From a virus: a stretch of DNA of 40,330 nt. Each line of letters begins with the position of its first letter. Position 1 is the stretch's first letter. The notes under the pieces are model-generated. The model saw only the letters and a program-made list of their open reading frames with translations. It was not told where the DNA came from and searched no databases. The stretch covers positions 1-40,330 of the IMG/VR virus record IMGVR_UViG_3300008114_000140. One strand, written 5' to 3'. The position numbers and the translations under genes were made by a program. Positions 14,596 through 36,569 of the stretch are shown here, piece by piece.

Positions 14596-14605
14596 TATAT
14601 TTATA
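14596..14605 (+). promoter_or_regulatory. Late-type promoter box TATATTTATA
   Basis: Exact copy of the recurrent box, 13 bases before the ATG at 14619, in the short gap after the radical SAM gene. Confidence 0.55.
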
Positions 14606-14929: not shown

Positions 14930-15232
14930 ATGTTAAAAACTAAAATACAAGAAATTAATCTATTAGGGAATACAATAAATAGACTATATTGTAACATTTT
15001 GAACTACGATTTAGGTAGAGATGCGTGTACTGTTAGATACGAATTGAGATATAGAAATTCACAAAATTCAGTAGCCGAACCAGATTCTTTTATTTCAAGT
15101 GGAGAATGGAAAGTACCTGCTAACATTTTGAATAATTGGGGTATGGATAACTATTTTTTGGCAGAAAAACTATGTGAACACTTGGGATTAACTTTCGTAG
15201 AACATATGACGAATCCCGTAGTGATGGATTAA
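14930..15232 (+). CDS. Hypothetical protein, 100 aa
   Basis: Not recognised. A mixed alpha/beta small protein without signal peptide or membrane segment. The first half has strand-like segments (CTVRYELRYRN). The second half contains GEWKVPANILNNWGMDNYFLAEKLCEHLGLTF, which looks helical and amphipathic. It has its own late-type box upstream and a hairpin with a T-run downstream, so it may be a monocistronic late gene, possibly a small structural protein. The ATG is the only plausible start. Confidence 0.7.
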   Translation: MLKTKIQEINLLGNTINRLYCNILNYDLGRDACTVRYELRYRNSQNSVAEPDSFISSGEWKVPANILNNWGMDNYFLAEKLCEHLGLTFVEHMTNPVVMD

Positions 15233-15255
15233 ATTTGGAAAATTCAAGTTTTTTT
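15231..15255 (+). terminator. Weak hairpin with T-run, overlapping the next promoter
   Basis: AAATTTG (15231-15237) pairs with CAAGTTT (15245-15251) across a 7-base loop, one pair being G-U, and the T-run continues to 15255. It is AT-rich and weak. Its position directly after a stop codon and its similarity to the stronger hairpin at 30280 support it. Confidence 0.45.
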
Positions 15256-15265
15256 CGTATATTTA
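15234..15265 (+). promoter_or_regulatory. Host-type promoter TTTG-N20-TATATTTA
   Basis: TTTG at 15234-15237 and TATATTTA at 15258-15265 are separated by 20 bases, as in the Bacteroidota -33/-7 consensus (TTTG, TAnnTTTG). The ATG at 15270 begins 5 bases after the -7 box, so the transcript would start at or next to the start codon. The same arrangement occurs at 30285-30316. Confidence 0.6.
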
Positions 15266-15269
15266 CATA

Positions 15270-16925
15270 ATGCAAAAAAAGAAGTTACTTTACATATGTC
15301 CGCACCTTTCTACGGGTGGACAACCACAATATACCTATAAACAGATAAAGCATTTTTTATCTGATTTTCAAATTGAAGTTGTTGAAATAAACAATAGTGG
15401 TGGTACTGCATTTGTGGTACAAAAAAATCGTATTAAAAGTTTAGTACCCGTTCATACATTGGGAGAAGATAAATCTAAAATTATAGATGTAATTCAAAAT
15501 TTTAATCCTGATATAATACATTTTCAGGAGATACCGCAGTTTGACCTTCCAGAATATGTGTTGGATATAATATTTGATAATAAAAGAAAATATAATATTG
15601 TTGCAACAACACATGGTTCGTTTACAAATCCTTCGGATATAGTATATCAACCAGATAGATATGTGTTGGTATCGGAATGGAGTAAAAAGAAATTTGAAGA
15701 ATCTAATCTTGGTGTTGAATTAACTACTTGGGAATATCCAATAGAAGAATATTCATTTAATAAAGAGGAATCTCAAATAGAATTGGGATTAGAAAAAGAT
15801 TACAAACATGTTTTAATGGTTGGGCTATTTTCGCCTGGAAAAAACCAAGCGGAAATATTTGAAATAGCAAGAAAATTACAAAAGTATAAAATTAAATTTC
15901 ATTTCGTAGGTAATCAGGCTATGAATTACGAAACATATTGGTCACCATTGATGAAAAACAAACCAGATAATTGTATTGTTTGGGGAGAGCGTGATGATGT
16001 TGATACGTTTTATGCGGCATGTGACCTTTTTTATTTTTCATCAATATTAGAACTAAATCCTCTTTCTATAAAAGAAGCATTATCTTTTAAAATGAAATGC
16101 ATCTTTAGAAAATTATATACATATTTGGATACATATGATGCCAATCCGTTGGTTACATATATAACCGATGATACAAATGCAACTAAACAAATTCTTATAG
16201 AAAATCTAAAACCTGAATTTAAAGAAGGATTTTCAGAAAAGCCAAGAATACAAATAAAACATTTACTAACAACCCCATACAACGATAGAGAACGATTTAG
16301 TATGAAATCTATTCGTCAATTGGAAAGTTATGGAATGGACTATGTTCCAATTGTAAATGAAGTTTATGAAGATTTTGCACCAAAAGAACATTGTAGAAGA
16401 CCTGACCATTTAAGTAAAGATAATAAACCTGGAGAATTATATCCTGGAGCTGGTTTGGGTTGGATTACTGGAAGACATTATGGTTGCTATTTGGCACATA
16501 AAATGGCAGTTGAAAATTTAAATAGAGATTACGATTATACATTAGTGTTTGAAGCAGATGGTTTTATTTATTCAACCGTTGAAGAATTTGTTGATATAGT
16601 ATATAAAGCATGTGATATAGCAGAAAAGAATAACGTTTACTATATTGGATTGGCAAATAACTTAAGTCAATATAAAGAAGTAGTGGATGAGGATTTTAGT
16701 AAAACCGCTCATAATCAAGATTTGGCACATTGTTATTTGTTAAGGAATACCGATAGAGAATGGTGGAATCAAAGAATAAAAGATTGTGAATGGGATGTTG
16801 GTGACCTTTGGTTTAACCACATATTCTATCACCATCAAGAATTAAGATACACTACTAATAAAGTGTATAGTAAGCAAGTTGAAGGATATTCATTACTTGA
16901 TGAAACAATAAAAACTTGGGACTAA
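15270..16925 (+). CDS. Two-domain glycosyltransferase (GT-B then GT-A-like), 551 aa
   Basis: Residues 1-335 look like a GT4-type GT-B transferase: LLYICPHLSTGGQPQYT at the start (glycine-rich acceptor loop), VLMVGLFSPGKNQAEIFEIA at the start of the second Rossmann domain and an E-x7-E motif ELNPLSIKE (E261, E269) for nucleotide-sugar binding. Residues 340-551 form a second module with LVFEADG (E428, D430), an acidic metal-binding motif resembling LPS-modifying GT25-type enzymes, and conserved-looking ends (HCYLLRNTDREWW, GDLWFNHIFYHH). It would add two sugars in sequence or pair one catalytic and one recognition domain. Its stop codon overlaps the next start (TAATG), so the two proteins are probably translationally coupled. 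The host-type promoter upstream suggests expression separate from the late genes. Confidence 0.82.
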   Translation: MQKKKLLYICPHLSTGGQPQYTYKQIKHFLSDFQIEVVEINNSGGTAFVVQKNRIKSLVPVHTLGEDKSKIIDVIQNFNPDIIHFQEIPQFDLPEYVLDIIFDNKRKYNIVATTHGSFTNPSDIVYQPDRYVLVSEWSKKKFEESNLGVELTTWEYPIEEYSFNKEESQIELGLEKDYKHVLMVGLFSPGKNQAEIFEIARKLQKYKIKFHFVGNQAMNYETYWSPLMKNKPDNCIVWGERDDVDTFYAACDLFYFSSILELNPLSIKEALSFKMKCIFRKLYTYLDTYDANPLVTYITDDTNATKQILIENLKPEFKEGFSEKPRIQIKHLLTTPYNDRERFSMKSIRQLESYGMDYVPIVNEVYEDFAPKEHCRRPDHLSKDNKPGELYPGAGLGWITGRHYGCYLAHKMAVENLNRDYDYTLVFEADGFIYSTVEEFVDIVYKACDIAEKNNVYYIGLANNLSQYKEVVDEDFSKTAHNQDLAHCYLLRNTDREWWNQRIKDCEWDVGDLWFNHIFYHHQELRYTTNKVYSKQVEGYSLLDETIKTWD

Positions 16926-24525: not shown

Positions 24526-25530
24526 ATGGCAGAACAATTTCAAGACGATAGGAGTTTCTTTGGGAGGCTTAAAAAACTATTCTCAACTAATGCAATCGTA
24601 ACCGTTGATAAAGATGGTAGACGTAAAGTTGTGGATGTTGAAGACCGTCAACATAATACAAACTTTGTAAACCTCAGAGATAGATATACTAAATTACAAA
24701 GGTCTTATTACGAAACCACACAGGGTGCACAATCAATGGCATATCATCAAGTTCGTAGAGAACTTTTTAGAGATTATGATGCTATGGACCAAGACCCTAT
24801 CATATCTTCGGCATTAGATATATATGCGGATGAGAGTACCACAAAGAATGAGTATGGCGATGTAATTCAAATTAAATCAACGAATGAAAATGTAAGAGAA
24901 ATACTTCATAATTTATTCTACGATATAATGAACATAGAATTTAACCTATGGCCTTGGATTAGAAACCTTGTAAAATATGGAGATGCTTTTATTGCATTAG
25001 AAATTATGCCTGGTAGAGGTATTATTAATGTAGCACCACACTCTGTATATAATGTAGAAAGATTAGAGGGTACTGACCCAAATAATCCTGATTATGTAAA
25101 GTATAAAGTTGAATTAGACCGTTTTGGTAAGAAAGAATATGAGCAGTATGAAATGGCTCACTTTAGAATGTTATCAGATACTAACTTCCTTCCATATGGT
25201 AAAGGAATGATTGAAGGTGCAAGAAGAATTTGGAAACAATTATCTTTAATGGAAGATGCGATGTTAATCCATCGTATTATGAGAGCACCTGAAAAAAGAA
25301 TATTTAAAATAGATATCGGTAATATTCCACCAACAGAAGTAGATAACTATATGCAAAAAATTATCAATAAAATGAAGAAAACTCCATTTGTTGATAAAAA
25401 CACAGGTGATTATAATTTAAAATACAATATTCAAAGCCTTACGGAAGATTTCTTCTTACCTGTTCGTGGTAGTGATAGTGGTACAACTATTGAAAATTGC
25501 AGTTGTTCATTTGGCATCTCAAGGTATTGA
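24526..25530 (+). CDS. gp20: Portal protein (gp20-like), N-terminal fragment
   Basis: The portal forms the dodecameric vertex through which DNA enters the head. Residues 1-324 read as a normal gp20 homologue: RDRYTKLQRSYYE, DQDPIISSALDIYADEST, PWIRNLVKYGDAFIALE, FLPYGKGMIEGARRIWKQLSLMEDAMLIHRIMRAPEKRIFKIDIGN, YNLKYNIQSLTEDFFLPVRGSDSGTTIEN. After N324 (25497) the frame runs into ten unrelated residues and stops at 25530. The C-terminal part of the portal continues in the +1 frame from about 25493. Because the sequence between the GTTIEN segment and the next portal motif is far shorter than in T4-type portals, an internal deletion of roughly 70-80 codons, of length 3n+2, is the likely cause. 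Confidence 0.9.
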   Translation: MAEQFQDDRSFFGRLKKLFSTNAIVTVDKDGRRKVVDVEDRQHNTNFVNLRDRYTKLQRSYYETTQGAQSMAYHQVRRELFRDYDAMDQDPIISSALDIYADESTTKNEYGDVIQIKSTNENVREILHNLFYDIMNIEFNLWPWIRNLVKYGDAFIALEIMPGRGIINVAPHSVYNVERLEGTDPNNPDYVKYKVELDRFGKKEYEQYEMAHFRMLSDTNFLPYGKGMIEGARRIWKQLSLMEDAMLIHRIMRAPEKRIFKIDIGNIPPTEVDNYMQKIINKMKKTPFVDKNTGDYNLKYNIQSLTEDFFLPVRGSDSGTTIENCSCSFGISRY

Positions 25531-26101
25531 AGATTCAGAAATGACAAACTTTGAATTAAGTTTAACTAACGCTTCTACAATTTACGAACAAGAAAAAGTT
25601 AATTTGTGGTCTGAAAAAGTTAGATTAGCAAGTGATGCGAAAGCACTTAATATGTTATCATCTGATTGGGCGTACCATAATATATTTGGTATGAGCCAGG
25701 ATGAAATGGATGTTGAAAGAGCAAAAGTAATATTAGACCTCAAAGACCGTTTCAGACAGACATCAATTGAACAACAAGGACAGGACCCGGCAAATCCACC
25801 AGAACAAACAAACGTAGAAGAAGAAATCAGTAAACTAAAAACTGAAATCGAATTAAATAGAGGAGTTGGTAGACCTAGAGAAGGGAACACTTATGGTAAA
25901 GATAAACATCCATACGGTAGAGACCCGTTGGGAGATAAGGAAAACCACAAGGAGAGAAAAAGAGATGATAGGAACTTAAATACAAATGCTAAGAAGTTAG
26001 CAAGAGAATATATAAACGGAATTTCATCAAAAAAGACGGTTTTAAATGAAAAATCGGGTATGCTTGATGAAAAAAATCTATTAGACGATACAAAAATTTA
26101 A
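25466..26101 (+). CDS. gp20: Portal protein (gp20-like), C-terminal fragment in shifted frame
   Basis: The open frame begins at a GTG at 25466, but the first nine residues are out-of-frame translation of the N-terminal fragment. Portal sequence starts at about 25493 with KIAVVHLASQG, then MTNFELSLTNASTIYEQEKVNLWSEKV, DWAYHNIFGMSQDEMDVERAK, typical of the region after the portal clip. The tail is charged and low-complexity (GRPREGNTYGKDKHPYGRDPLGDKENHKERKRDDRN in part) and ends with KKLAREYINGISSKKTVLNEKSGML. There are about 202 residues from 25493. Together with the 324 N-terminal residues this gives about 526, shorter than expected for this portal type. No plausible ribosome start precedes it, so it is probably half of one broken gene. 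Confidence 0.85.
   Translation: MVVIVVQLLKIAVVHLASQGIEDSEMTNFELSLTNASTIYEQEKVNLWSEKVRLASDAKALNMLSSDWAYHNIFGMSQDEMDVERAKVILDLKDRFRQTSIEQQGQDPANPPEQTNVEEEISKLKTEIELNRGVGRPREGNTYGKDKHPYGRDPLGDKENHKERKRDDRNLNTNAKKLAREYINGISSKKTVLNEKSGMLDEKNLLDDTKI
25486..25502 (+). other. Frame-switch/deletion junction inside the portal gene
   Basis: Frame 1 reads T-T-I-E-N up to 25497. The +1 frame reads L-K-I-A-V-V-H from 25490. The shared bases ATTGAAAATTGC could be microhomology (GAAAAT/AAAATT) joining two originally distant points. I see no slippery heptamer with a downstream structure that would explain programmed frameshifting, and frameshifting would not restore the missing portal segment. Confidence 0.65.
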
Positions 26102-29438: not shown

Positions 29439-29930
29439 ATGATTCGTTTAACTGATTTAGCTGGAAAAGGTTCTTTCACTATGGGTGATAAGAAATTTGA
29501 ATATGGTAAAGTTTATTCTAATCCATACGCAAGTGCATTTAAGCCTGTAAATGAAGCAGAAGGTGAAGACCACGAAGTTTCTATGGCAAACAATTCATTA
29601 GATACTATCATTAAGATGGCAACTGAATTAAAAGCAAAGATGGGTGAGAATGAAAAAGATATACCGGCTTGGATTCAAGACCACATTACTAATGCAGAAA
29701 ACTTTATTTCACAAGCATCATCTAACTATCACGAATACGGACAAAACGAAGGTGTGGTAAACGAAGATTCAGAAACGAATAGATTAGAAAAATTAATTAA
29801 AAATTTAGAAGAAACAAATAAATTATTATTACAAAATCTTAATCATACTAAAAGTTTACCAAATAATAAATCAATCAGCTGCAAACGAATCATTGGTAAA
29901 AGAAGATTCACCTTGTTGGAAAGGATATAA
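29439..29930 (+). CDS. Prohead-region protein, probable N-terminal part of a frame-disrupted gene
   Basis: Opens MIRLTDLAGKGSF, then YGKVYSNPYASAFKP and a helical part (NSLDTIIKMATELKAKMGENEKDIPAWIQDHITNAENFISQASSNY, read in parts) ending with a charged coil (NRLEKLIKNLEETNKLLLQNL). After about residue 140 the sequence becomes unlike protein (basic, SISCKRIIGKRRFTLLERI) and stops at 29930. The +1 frame then carries NQSAANESLVKEDSPCWKGYKQVGMK, which looks like a natural protein linker. Residues up to about 135 are credible; the rest is probably out of frame. Function unknown; head operon location. Confidence 0.65.
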   Translation: MIRLTDLAGKGSFTMGDKKFEYGKVYSNPYASAFKPVNEAEGEDHEVSMANNSLDTIIKMATELKAKMGENEKDIPAWIQDHITNAENFISQASSNYHEYGQNEGVVNEDSETNRLEKLIKNLEETNKLLLQNLNHTKSLPNNKSISCKRIIGKRRFTLLERI

Positions 29931-30267
29931 GCAAGTTGGTATGAAAAATAAAGGTGGTAGACAAGTTCCAAATTGTGTACCTAACGAATCAATAGTTAAA
30001 GAAGCTGGTTTATATGGTGGCGTACCTAAAATGTATGTAAAATATTTAGCAGTACAAAAGAAAGTAAGAGAATTAGAAGATGCACAAAGAGCTATGGGTG
30101 CTAAATACTTCGCTGAAAAGAACCCAAAGAAAAAGGAAGCTATGATGCCACTTTTGAAAAAAGGAACTAATCAATTAGAAATGTATAGAAGAAATTTAGC
30201 AGATATAGAGAGAAAATACATTGATAATTTATATAAGGATGTAGAACAAAGTCCTGATTTTGAATAA
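29893..30267 (+). CDS. C-terminal part of the disrupted prohead-region gene (PCWKGY...VPNCVP module)
   Basis: Begins in a frame shifted by +1 relative to the upstream fragment. The TTG at 29893 is only a formal start: the same frame reads KVYQIINQSAANES before it, and the first ATG is 29941. The module SPCWKGYKQVGMKNKGGRQVPNCVP (two Cys, basic) is one I associate with proteins of marine T4-like phages. A helical C-terminus follows (YVKYLAVQKKVRELEDAQRAMGAKYFAEK; QLEMYRRNLADIERKYIDNLYKDVEQ). A strong terminator hairpin follows the stop. It may instead be a separate gene starting at 29941. Confidence 0.6.
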   Translation: MVKEDSPCWKGYKQVGMKNKGGRQVPNCVPNESIVKEAGLYGGVPKMYVKYLAVQKKVRELEDAQRAMGAKYFAEKNPKKKEAMMPLLKKGTNQLEMYRRNLADIERKYIDNLYKDVEQSPDFE

Positions 30268-30279
30268 AAAATTATAAAG

Positions 30280-30306
30280 AAAAGTTTGGTAAATCCAAAC
30301 TTTTTT
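30280..30306 (+). terminator. Rho-independent terminator of the prohead operon
   Basis: AAAAGTTTGG (30280-30289) and CCAAACTTTT (30295-30304) form a perfect 10-bp stem with a 5-base loop (TAAAT), followed by T to 30306. It lies 13 bases after the stop codon. The TTTG in its left arm is also the -33 box of the next promoter. Confidence 0.85.
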
Positions 30307-30316
30307 CGTATATTTG
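30285..30316 (+). promoter_or_regulatory. Host-type promoter TTTG-N20-TATATTTG before the methyltransferase
   Basis: TTTG (30285-30288) and TATATTTG (30309-30316) with a 20-base spacer match the Bacteroidota consensus TTTG/TAnnTTTG exactly. The ATG at 30321 is 5 bases past the -7 box, predicting a leaderless mRNA. The bases TTTTTTCGTATATTT are shared with the promoter at 15234. Confidence 0.75.
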
Positions 30317-30320
30317 TGTT

Positions 30321-31640
30321 ATGATTAAACCTTTCTCCATTTTAGACACTCGTTCTAAAGAGTGGCAAGAACGTAAAAGATGGTGGATTAACACCTACAA
30401 TATCCAATCAGAATTGGGTAGAGAAGATACTCAATCGAGAGCACGTTTTTGGGAAGATAATACCGTTTCTATATTTGATGCTACACTTTGTGAAAAGATG
30501 TATGAGTGGTTTTGTCCAAACGAAGGTAGAGTATTAGACCCATTTGCGGGTGGTAGTGTTAGAGGTATTGTGGCAACTGAAATGGGATTTATCTATAATG
30601 GTATTGACCTTTCGGATGAACAAATAGAAGCAAATAAAAAACAATCATCAAAACCAAATTGGATACAAGGAGATAGTGAGTGGGTAATTGATTCCATTCA
30701 GAATAAAACTCAGGACTTCGTATTCACTTGTCCACCTTATTATGATTTAGAAAAATATACAGATAATCCAGCTGACCTTTCAAATATGGATGAAGATTCA
30801 TTTGATAAAAAATATTATTCTATTTTAAGAAAAGCGGCAGAAAAACTAAAAGATAATCGTTTCTTTGCAGTAGTAGTATCAGAAGTAAGAGAACAATCTC
30901 TAACCGGAAATTATAAGATTGGAAAGTATAAAGGGTTAGTTTGGAAAACTATCCAAGCCTGTGAAGAAGCTGGACTTCATTTTTATAATGATATGGTTTT
31001 GTTTAATTCACAACACCAGGCTTCAAGAGTGGTTGATACATATTTTGAAAGAAATCGTAAGGTAGCATCGGTTCATCAAAACATTTTAGTATTTGTGAAA
31101 GGTAATCCTGATATTGCAACCGAAAGTATTGTAAATGGTGATACGTTTATATGTATCGTTGAAGGTAAACAATATAGGAGTTTTAGAGAAGCTGCAATTG
31201 ATATTAATCCAAATGAGTTAGTGGCTACCGAAGTTGAAAGAAGGTGCCGTTCAACTAAATCAAAGTACAAAGATTGGCAAATCATTGGCGAAGAAACCAA
31301 TCCACATATTAAATACGAAATAGAAGGAGTTCCTTTTGAGAACCCAAAACAGGTGGCGGATAAATTAGGATTAACTGAATCCGAAGCAAGAAACTATTTT
31401 GAATCAAATAATCCAGTATATCGTCATTGGAAAAAAGTTGACCGTACCGATATTGGATATGATGAAATGAACGAATTACAACATCGTTCTAAAATACAAA
31501 TACAACTTCCAATAATTGAGTGTGAAGGTAAACAATTCTATTCTTTAAAAGAAGCCGGAGAACACTTTGGATATTCAGATGAAAGAATTCGTCAAAAATT
31601 AAAAGACGATAAATACCCATCATACATCTATCTTTTCTAA
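30321..31640 (+). CDS. DNA methyltransferase with three C-terminal HTH (NUMOD-like) repeats, 439 aa
   Basis: AdoMet-dependent DNA methyltransferase. Residues 60-90 give motif I VLDPFAGGSVRGIVA (D73). Motif IV is TCPPYYDLE (C137-P-P-Y140), where classical amino-methylases have D/N/S-PPY. Motif I precedes motif IV, as in gamma-type enzymes. KIGKYKGLVWKTIQACEEAG and HQNILVFVKGN complete the fold to about 255. Residues 270-439 hold three related units of about 45 residues: VEGKQYRSFREAA...YKDWQII, IEGVPFENPKQVADKLGLTESEA...YRHWKKV, CEGKQFYSLKEAGEHFGYSDERI...YPSYIYLF. These resemble the HTH repeats of homing endonucleases and probably read the DNA target. It interrupts the head operon with its own terminator-promoter. 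The methylated base and site are unknown. Confidence 0.85.
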   Translation: MIKPFSILDTRSKEWQERKRWWINTYNIQSELGREDTQSRARFWEDNTVSIFDATLCEKMYEWFCPNEGRVLDPFAGGSVRGIVATEMGFIYNGIDLSDEQIEANKKQSSKPNWIQGDSEWVIDSIQNKTQDFVFTCPPYYDLEKYTDNPADLSNMDEDSFDKKYYSILRKAAEKLKDNRFFAVVVSEVREQSLTGNYKIGKYKGLVWKTIQACEEAGLHFYNDMVLFNSQHQASRVVDTYFERNRKVASVHQNILVFVKGNPDIATESIVNGDTFICIVEGKQYRSFREAAIDINPNELVATEVERRCRSTKSKYKDWQIIGEETNPHIKYEIEGVPFENPKQVADKLGLTESEARNYFESNNPVYRHWKKVDRTDIGYDEMNELQHRSKIQIQLPIIECEGKQFYSLKEAGEHFGYSDERIRQKLKDDKYPSYIYLF

Positions 31641-31687: not shown

Positions 31688-31695
31688 CATACAAT

Positions 31696-31719
31696 AACGT
31701 ATTTTATATACGTTTTTTT
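31696..31719 (+). terminator. AT-rich hairpin plus T-run in the scaffold-gene leader
   Basis: AACGTAT (31696-31702) pairs with ATACGTT (31708-31714) across a 5-base loop, and T-run to 31719. It may end methyltransferase transcripts or act as an attenuator, since it lies just after the box at 31678. Nothing else is apparent in 31720-31829 except an A-rich region before the ATG. Confidence 0.4.
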
Positions 31720-31829
31720 ATTGGTAAATGAATACTCTCGTATTATGAGTAGTGACCAAAAGCCAATCAAATTTATTCTATTTAAGCTCCAAATCTAATA
31801 GCTTAAGAAATCCGATAAATAAGGAAAAA

Positions 31830-32933
31830 ATGGCAAGTTCAAAATTGTTGAAAGAAGCCATCGCAGATGCTAAAGCTGTTCGTGAAACTGCTATTGCTAA
31901 CGCTAAAATCGCTCTTGAAGAAGCGTTTACTCCTCGTTTACAATCTATTCTTTCTAAAAAATTACAAGCCGAAATGGAAGGTGATGAAGAAGAAACAGAT
32001 ATGAACGAAGATAACGATGTATCAAGCGAAATTGGTAAAGGTGATAACAAACAACCTGCAACTAAAGCAAATGATGATGACACTGACTTAAGCGGAATTG
32101 CAAACCAAAGCTCTGAAGTAGGTGCTGAAGTTGAAGATTACGATAAAGTAAAAGACCTTACTGAAGCTGAAGATGAGTTCGGTGCAGAAGAAGAAATTCC
32201 TGCAGAAGAACCAGTAGCAGAAGAAGGTGAAGAAGCTCCTGAATTTGGTGGTGATGATGAAGATGAATTAGATCTTGAATCAATCATTAGAGAATTAGAA
32301 GCTCAAATCGCTGGTGAAGAAGGTGATGAATATCACGAAGAAGAACCAGCAGTAGAAGGTGAAGAAGCACCGGTTGAAGAACCAGTAGCTGCTGAACCTG
32401 CAGTTGAAGCTGAAGAAGTTCCAACTGAAGAACCAGCTCACGATGAAGAAGAAATCGATTTAGATGAAATCTTACGTGAAATGGGATATGGTGATGACGA
32501 AGAAAAAGTTGAAGAAGCTGAAGAACCAAAGCATGATGAAGAAAAAGAAAAACTTCAAGCAGAATTGGCAGAAGCAATTTCTACAATTAAATCTTTGAAA
32601 GGCACTATTAACGAAGTAAATTTGTTAAACGCAAAATTACTTTACGCAAACAAATTGTTCCGTTCTTACAACTTAACTAACGAACAAAAAGTAAAAGTAG
32701 TTGAGAATTTAGACAGAACATCTTCTGTAAGAGAAGTTAAATTGGTTTACGCAACTCTTGCTGAAAGCATGAAATTTACTGGAACTGAAAGAAAAGTAGC
32801 GGCTAAGAAGACAATGACCGAAGGGTTTGCTTCTAAATCACAAGCTACAACAGCTCCAAAGAAAGAAATCATTGCAGAAAGCACAAACGAATTAGCTAAT
32901 CGTTTCAAACAATTAGCTGGTATCGTAAAATAA
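31830..32933 (+). CDS. gp22: Prohead scaffold/core protein (gp22-like), 367 aa
   Basis: Internal scaffold around which the capsid assembles, later degraded by gp21. Identified by position directly before the major capsid gene and by composition: helical N-terminus (SSKLLKEAIADAKAVRETAIANAKIALEEAF in part), then about 180 residues dominated by Glu and Asp with EEPVAEE, EEAPVEEPV and EEVPTEEPA repeats, and two similar segments LDLESIIRELEAQI and IDLDEILREMGYG. A helical C-terminal domain follows (LNAKLLYANKLFRSYNLTNEQKVKVVENLDR in part) and ends ANRFKQLAGIVK. The ATG at 31830 (AAGGAAAAAATGG context) is chosen over an upstream in-frame start at 31752 because the extra 26 residues look unnatural. 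Confidence 0.88.
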   Translation: MASSKLLKEAIADAKAVRETAIANAKIALEEAFTPRLQSILSKKLQAEMEGDEEETDMNEDNDVSSEIGKGDNKQPATKANDDDTDLSGIANQSSEVGAEVEDYDKVKDLTEAEDEFGAEEEIPAEEPVAEEGEEAPEFGGDDEDELDLESIIRELEAQIAGEEGDEYHEEEPAVEGEEAPVEEPVAAEPAVEAEEVPTEEPAHDEEEIDLDEILREMGYGDDEEKVEEAEEPKHDEEKEKLQAELAEAISTIKSLKGTINEVNLLNAKLLYANKLFRSYNLTNEQKVKVVENLDRTSSVREVKLVYATLAESMKFTGTERKVAAKKTMTEGFASKSQATTAPKKEIIAESTNELANRFKQLAGIVK

Positions 32934-35056: not shown

Positions 35057-35063
35057 ATTTTAC

Positions 35064-35117
35064 ACCCCTTTCTAACTATTCTATATTTATAAAGGTAAAC
35101 ACACCAAATATATGGCA
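35064..35117 (+). repeat. Duplicated promoter/leader segment, copy 1
   Basis: This 54-base segment runs from the CCCCTTT upstream of the late box through the ATGGCA of the next gene. It matches 36516-36569 at 48 of 54 positions without gaps. It contains the TATATTTATA box (35082-35091) and GGTAAACAC leader. Confidence 0.85.
35082..35091 (+). promoter_or_regulatory. Late-type promoter box TATATTTATA
   Basis: Exact box, 20 bases before the ATG at 35112; identical spacing in the second copy at 36534. Confidence 0.65.
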
Positions 35118-36506: not shown

Positions 36507-36515
36507 TATCATTTT

Positions 36516-36569
36516 ACCCCTTTCCAACTATTTTATATTTATAGTGGTAAACACATTAAATATATGGCA
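36516..36569 (+). repeat. Duplicated promoter/leader segment, copy 2
   Basis: Second copy of the 54-base segment at 35064-35117 (48 of 54 identical). The box is at 36534-36543 and the ATG at 36564, spacing unchanged. Confidence 0.85.
36534..36543 (+). promoter_or_regulatory. Late-type promoter box TATATTTATA
   Basis: Exact box 20 bases before the ATG at 36564, inside the duplicated leader. Confidence 0.65.

Follow-up and report, generated by a model that had tools for sequence, protein, structure and literature searches.

The PeSLs of T4-like phages, on which Arbiol in 2010 and Comeau in 2014 reportedly worked, lie in hyperplastic regions between core blocks, and the moron concept is said to go back to Hendrix and Juhala, both in 2000. 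As far as the papers cited here describe them, a PeSL (promoter early stem-loop) is a composite promoter-terminator motif of T4-like phages held to mediate gene shuffling (PMC4503421; PMC3950731), and a moron is a gene inserted between conserved genes, absent in close relatives and equipped with its own promoter and terminator (PMC2147016; PMC6814406). For Bacteroidota, the core of the housekeeping promoter is given as TTTG / TAnnTTTG (PMC6847099; PMC7366714), and leaderless mRNAs are a minority in these hosts, with 5.5% in F. psychrophilum (PMC9723704) and ca. 3.7% of 5' UTRs shorter than 10 nt in B. thetaiotaomicron (PMC7366714).

The DNA analysed here, hereafter the window, is a virus record of 40,330 bases from a T4-like myovirus (Portal_T4, 1.4e-44; Peptidase_S77, 7.5e-28), whose prohead protease and portal are of T4 type according to their Pfam matches. 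It contains a DNA methyltransferase gene, most probably a moron-like insertion headed by a promoter-terminator composite of the PeSL type. The likeness to PeSLs, as these are portrayed in papers citing the original work, lies in a stem-loop terminator joined to a host-type promoter, presumably early here, in a T4-like myovirus and at the border of a variable gene. The apparent differences from them are a promoter of the Bacteroidota sigma-A type, a -33 box placed within the stem and a probably leaderless AUG; moreover, the element is found in the structural block, between the prohead protease and scaffold genes, and not in a hyperplastic region. No description of a promoter-terminator overlap of this kind in Bacteroidota phages was found in the literature searched. 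Composites of this kind are thus already known, and what seems new, judging by that literature, is the combination of a Bacteroidota promoter, a -33 box in the stem, a putative leaderless start and a location in the structural block.

In a terminase comparison, the closest named relatives of the window were Flavobacterium phage immuto and 'Microcystis phage' Mel-JY01, and three larger relatives (274, 253 and 289 kb) have a gene order much like its own. In the window, the portal gene (24526-26101) is disrupted: a frame of 334 aa is followed by a second one. Near-identical contigs encode a portal of 591 aa and are 200 bases longer at this gene; an assembly error or a defective genome is possible. 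The features at the methyltransferase are the following:

29893-30267, plus strand: preceding gene (124 aa, from the ORF list), with PHROG matches of unknown function; a homologue precedes the site in most relatives
30280-30304, plus strand: 10-bp terminator-like hairpin, with conserved pairing in 22 distinct rows
30280-30289 and 30295-30304, plus strand: stem arms AAAAGTTTGG and CCAAACTTTT, separated by the loop TAAAT, as read from the sequence
30285-30289, plus strand: -33 element TTTGG, in the 5' arm of the stem, found with the promoter matrix
30301-30306, plus strand: T-tract, serving as terminator U-tract and as part of the promoter spacer, invariant in the alignment
30309-30316, plus strand: -7 element TATATTTG, found with the promoter matrix and preceded by TTCG (30305-30308); it fits the TAnnTTTG given for Bacteroidota sigma-A in PMC6847099
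30321, plus strand: predicted transcription start at the A of the ATG, four bases past the -7 box, by the F. johnsoniae spacing given in PMC6847099 and by the 4-base peak in relatives
30321-31640, plus strand: inserted DNA methyltransferase gene (Pfam N6_N4_Mtase, E 1.5e-11; PHROG DNA methyltransferase, 4.9e-62)
31696-31714, plus strand: hairpin and T-run downstream of the methyltransferase, an ancestral feature of the site that also occurs in loci lacking the insert

Hairpin, T-tract, TATATTTG and ATG are packed into 44 bases (30280-30323). The TTTG at 30285-30288 is followed by 20 bases, TATATTTG (30309-30316), four bases and the ATG at 30321, so that the layout given in the original prediction (a 10-bp stem containing TTTG, a -7 box and an ATG) is exact to the base. 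The stem has only three G-C pairs in the window. The folding energy of the hairpin is -12.2 kcal/mol, compared with -2.6 for shuffled sequences (z -5.5). A chance origin of the element was considered and rejected upon comparison of both the promoter matrix and the hairpin folding with shuffles. A second copy of the promoter precedes a glycosyltransferase gene:

15231-15251, plus strand: weak AT-rich hairpin before the glycosyltransferase, not conserved in relatives
15234-15265, plus strand: second promoter, with TTTGG at 15234-15238 and TATATTTA at 15258-15265, conserved in relatives
15270-16925, plus strand: glycosyltransferase gene (Pfam Glycos_transf_1, 2.1e-13; PHROG category moron/auxiliary metabolic gene)

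This copy displays TTTG (15234-15237), 20 bases, TATATTTA (15258-15265), four bases and the ATG at 15270; the last base of TATATTTA is an A where TATATTTG has a G. The identical spacing and the shared sequence predicted for the two copies are thus borne out, TTTTTTCGTATATTT being common to both (15250-15264 and 30301-30315), with no other exact copy in the window, a count also checked with a 13-base core. When mismatches were allowed, the shared 15-mer was not enriched in the window (8 found vs 12.2 expected) and the 13-base core with two mismatches gave 10 matches vs 6.9 expected, so that mismatch counts are useless as evidence. Contrary to what had been proposed, the two copies are not the same composite: the promoter is present at both genes, but a conserved terminator is not. 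The hairpin before the glycosyltransferase is weak, with nine inner pairs (two G-U and one G-C), -7.4 kcal/mol and a z of -3.3. Among 24 distinct glycosyltransferase promoters, that of the window is alone at or below -7 kcal/mol, which confines this hairpin to the window lineage, whereas the promoter itself is conserved. For this comparison, 46 loci were collected, three that are identical to the window (L136-L138) and L157 were left out, and the box was missing from one of 43 rows (L180). The hairpin therefore belongs to the methyltransferase copy and not to the glycosyltransferase copy.

The promoter was modelled as a matrix of 48 positions trained on the three larger relatives, the window being left out. 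Searching for copies in relatives, as the original prediction had suggested, revealed 154 sites above 14 bits in these genomes (815 kb), against 0.2 in first-order Markov shuffles, and a scan of the window with the relatives' matrix detected exactly two sites in 40 kb, at 40 and 41 bits. The resulting consensus is rigid and extends over ca. 45 nt, with an A-rich stretch, ATTTGG, a spacer with a conserved TCAAA, and TTCGTATATTTGTA, 19 bases separating TTTGG from TAT. The string TTCGTATATTTG, a part of this matrix-derived consensus, is present in 14 of the 18 records searched, and its reversed control gave a single match over all of them. In the viral collection, the shared 15-mer occurs in 72 stretches vs 22 for its scramble, or about 3-fold. 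Since sites of this class also precede replication genes and many unassigned genes in relatives, the class is a general promoter of the phage group and no cargo device, and the portable promoter reserved for cargo genes that had been envisaged is not supported.

The host-type character claimed for the promoter is supported by its match to the Bacteroidota sigma-A core, with TTTG near -33 and TAnnTTTG at -7; both boxes and the expected distance to the transcription start are like those of Bacteroidota sigma-A (sigma-ABfr) promoters (PMC6847099). The phage promoter is nevertheless stricter and longer, with an almost invariant TTTGG, TTCG before the -7 box and a fixed 19-base spacing, whereas the -33 box is described there as hardly visible in F. 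johnsoniae (PMC6847099). The full extended form was found in none of 15 Bacteroidota genomes, while three phage records contain 12, 9 and 7 exact copies; the phages thus have the stricter form, and it is from the core consensus that recruitment of the host sigma factor is deduced. In the same 15 genomes, TTCGTATATTTG occurs 35 times vs 22 for its reversed form, and TTTG-N20-TANNTTTG 857 times vs 513. The pattern with a T-run and ATG was rejected as not specific: it was found in 94 stretches of genome contigs and, among the 80 listed, many had Bacteroidota titles and other phyla occurred too. In Mel-JY01 (PP395634.1, L399-L402), which is filed under a cyanobacterial host, 17 sites of the Bacteroidota-type promoter exceed 10 bits and 13 exceed 14 bits, and this host label may deserve a check; against such doubt, matches to the plain TTTG-N18-21-TANNTTTG pattern do not exceed those in shuffled sequence in this phage.

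Within the genomes of the relatives, the promoter class is scarce in the structural block, whose limits were set at the outermost structural genes, as marked from annotated immuto genes. With a cut-off of 10 bits in one genome (54 sites) and of 14 bits in the remaining two (42 and 61), the block contains 3/54, 3/42 and 2/61, for a total of eight vs 57.7 expected if sites were uniform (p 3e-7 to 6e-9). These eight in-block sites precede the primase (four sites in three genomes, one of which has two), the glycosyltransferase (two), the methyltransferase (one) and a 75-aa ORF (one), none of these being an assigned virion gene, in agreement with the view that the two accessory genes of the window have their own promoter within a promoter-poor block of virion genes. 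The 75-aa ORF, located between the capsid and head-completion genes of the 289-kb relative (G005, 144933-145204), is perhaps another insert. Host-type boxes and this distribution suggest that the promoter class would be active early.

A search for homologues of the methyltransferase, which in the window is inserted among virion genes, between the prohead protease and scaffold genes, identified 40 loci. The start was readable in 37, and L131, L132 and L135, which lacked either the start or a close relationship, were left out of the reading of the element. Thirty-one of the 37 loci are situated among structural genes and 30 of these match the element pattern, the remaining one (L118) having the hairpin and a -7 box that is one base short; the element is present in one (L127) of the six loci outside the block and missing from the other five. 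As is typical of morons, the gene can be present or absent between the same neighbours. Among the best 80 of at least 525 relatives in a survey based on the prohead protease, the promoter was found in 14/14 sites at which the methyltransferase separates the protease from scaffold or capsid and in 0/21 sites without this gene, 45 of the 80 loci not being assessable for the insert (Fisher 4e-10, relatedness ignored). Alignment with empty sites showed that homology to the window is lost within the genes preceding the insert and picks up again at the stop codon of the methyltransferase, where a conserved leader of the scaffold gene is located; the insert thus comprises the element and the gene. 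The element forms its 5' end, and there is no copy of it at the 3' border. Like a moron, the methyltransferase has its own promoter, judging by sequence; unlike in a moron, the terminator-like hairpin lies before the promoter and overlaps it, and the hairpin downstream already belonged to the ancestral site.

The leader of the scaffold gene (31690-31815), present with and without the insert, is itself a conserved structured RNA, with 25 pairs in four helices and 98.8% of the cells paired in 34 sequences. Fourteen pairs are changed on both sides, and the covariation score is 0.357, compared with 0.159 when shuffled and at most 0.080 when slid. Searches against Rfam yielded no family at the gathering score, only sub-threshold matches, for this leader. 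The true start of the scaffold gene is probably the ATG at 31830 rather than the GTG at 31752. To the eye, the C-terminal part of the methyltransferase (31101-31637) seems to consist of three short repeats; its similarity to sigma-70 region 4 and to NUMOD1 is below threshold.

The overlap of a U-tract hairpin with the promoter, another feature of the original prediction, is retained in all 32 element-bearing methyltransferase loci (20 distinct sequences), which keep the stem core, the 5-base loop and the 19-base spacing from TTTGG to TAT. Across 22 distinct aligned rows, 219 of 220 cells are paired; one pair is changed in both partners (C-G in 16 rows, T-A in 6), another in a single partner, and eight are invariant, so that the covariation comes from a single pair. 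On a tree of 27 methyltransferases, whose bootstrap support is not settled, the T-A/C-G switch requires at least five changes without any mismatch, a repetition that recombination could imitate. CTTGG occupies the -33 box in 17 of 23 aligned rows; as it spoils the first T of this box, pairing appears to outweigh that base.

Taken with the other observations, this makes it probable, in our judgement, that terminator and promoter are united in one sequence which came with, or was built in front of, the inserted methyltransferase and makes this gene a transcription unit of its own. At the RNA level, the element would act as an intrinsic terminator for transcripts of the genes in front of it; at the DNA level, it would be a strong promoter for the host sigma-A holoenzyme, the stem containing its -33 box and the U-tract acting as spacer. 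The methyltransferase mRNA would begin at or next to its AUG. The element would have come with the gene, or been built in front of it, when the latter was inserted between prohead protease and scaffold, and the insert would thereby be transcribed separately in a block nearly devoid of this promoter class, insulation being the presumed benefit.

An ordinary promoter might instead overlap the terminator of the upstream operon by accident, both parts being real and functionally uncoupled. The consensus promoter contains a half-dyad, TTTGG-N5-TCAAA, from which few changes give a hairpin, and such terminators can presumably evolve from promoters in this way. Furthermore, although the promoter is widespread, only four of its 155 sites in the large relatives have a strong hairpin overlapping it (3/52, 1/42 and 0/61), and the 15-mer is not richer in hairpins than its scramble in the whole viral collection (12/52 distinct sites vs 4/21). 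An accident of this sort is nonetheless unlikely given the fixed register of the overlap in 32/32 methyltransferase loci with 20 distinct sequences, and given phage immuto, where hairpins overlap 9 of 28 boxes vs 13 of 219 control starts (p 2e-4). The 28 boxes of that test lie within 60 bases of an ORF, and a separate listing of 15 was also chosen for a TT before the box. Since the immuto overlaps include those before the endolysin, primase and PhoH genes, the composite is a general device in this phage.

The dyad could also be a DNA operator, an inverted repeat over the -33 box to which a protein, perhaps the methyltransferase, binds and represses the promoter. DNA methyltransferases can repress their own promoters, the repeat does cover the -33 box, and matched changes in the half-sites would mimic covariation. 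We nevertheless consider an operator very improbable because stems of other sequence occur in the same register at other genes (57837 in G001, 191374 in G012, and immuto), mostly with a T-run, and because five or more pair switches on the tree are not what would be expected of a binding specificity. Finally, an insulated promoter travelling with cargo genes alone, as first proposed, is scarcely credible: the window has it before a methyltransferase and a glycosyltransferase, and L127 combines the element with a methyltransferase at another place, but the promoter is general, the immuto composite stands before non-cargo genes (primase, endolysin and PhoH), and the hairpin is conserved at the methyltransferase and not at the glycosyltransferase.

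The terminator-promoter reading includes a leaderless start of the methyltransferase, as originally predicted, and several observations are consistent with it. In the three relatives, 128 of the 154 sites have, within ca. 120 bases, the ATG of an ORF that is 45 codons or longer (26 have none), and the gap from box to ATG is 1-7 bases in 17 (exactly 4 in 11), 8-13 in none and 14 or more in 111. According to PMC6847099, transcription in F. johnsoniae begins 4-5 nt past the -7 box, so that the class with a 4-base gap should open with AUG. The methyltransferase ATG, at 4 bases, coincides with the expected transcription start; its mRNA should thus be leaderless and open with the AUG, or nearly so. 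Phage homologues align with the protein from residue 1 or 2. Of the 32 loci of methyltransferase relatives, 24 have 3-5 bases between box and ATG, four have 7-8 and a further four have 26; with an ATG at least 7 bases from the box in eight loci, a leaderless start is not universal.

A more far-reaching version, which we advance tentatively and which is quite possible while falling somewhat short of probable, depicts the element as a self-insulating insertion cassette: some 40 bp selected both as RNA hairpin and as promoter would allow a gene to settle within the block of essential morphogenesis genes of a jumbo phage, shielded from incoming read-through and giving an early leaderless transcript, the stem being kept at the cost of the -33 T. 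If true, this would represent a PeSL-like principle using a different sigma factor and tied to leaderless translation. For Bacteroidota jumbo myophages, a promoter map at the level of sequence becomes available (a consensus of ca. 45 nt, scarce in the structural block), which illustrates how accessory genes can stay expressed within a block of virion genes. Such elements provide short natural parts for Bacteroidota in which stop signal, promoter and leaderless start are joined, and they make it testable whether one sequence terminates and initiates at the same place.

Another motif, TATTTATA, occurs on the coding strand shortly before many ORFs in the window and its relatives (in the window at 14598, 14908, 18874, 35084 and 36536) and is perhaps a second promoter class. 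Its strand bias in the three relatives is 48 vs 14, 41 vs 11 and 63 vs 26. As a late promoter it was rejected, since it is strand-biased yet not clearly confined to the structural block. Similar blocks, each with CCCCTTT, CAACTAT or TAACTAT, TATATTTATA and GGTAAACACA, are found at 35060-35112 and 36510-36564, before the genes starting at 35112 and 36564.
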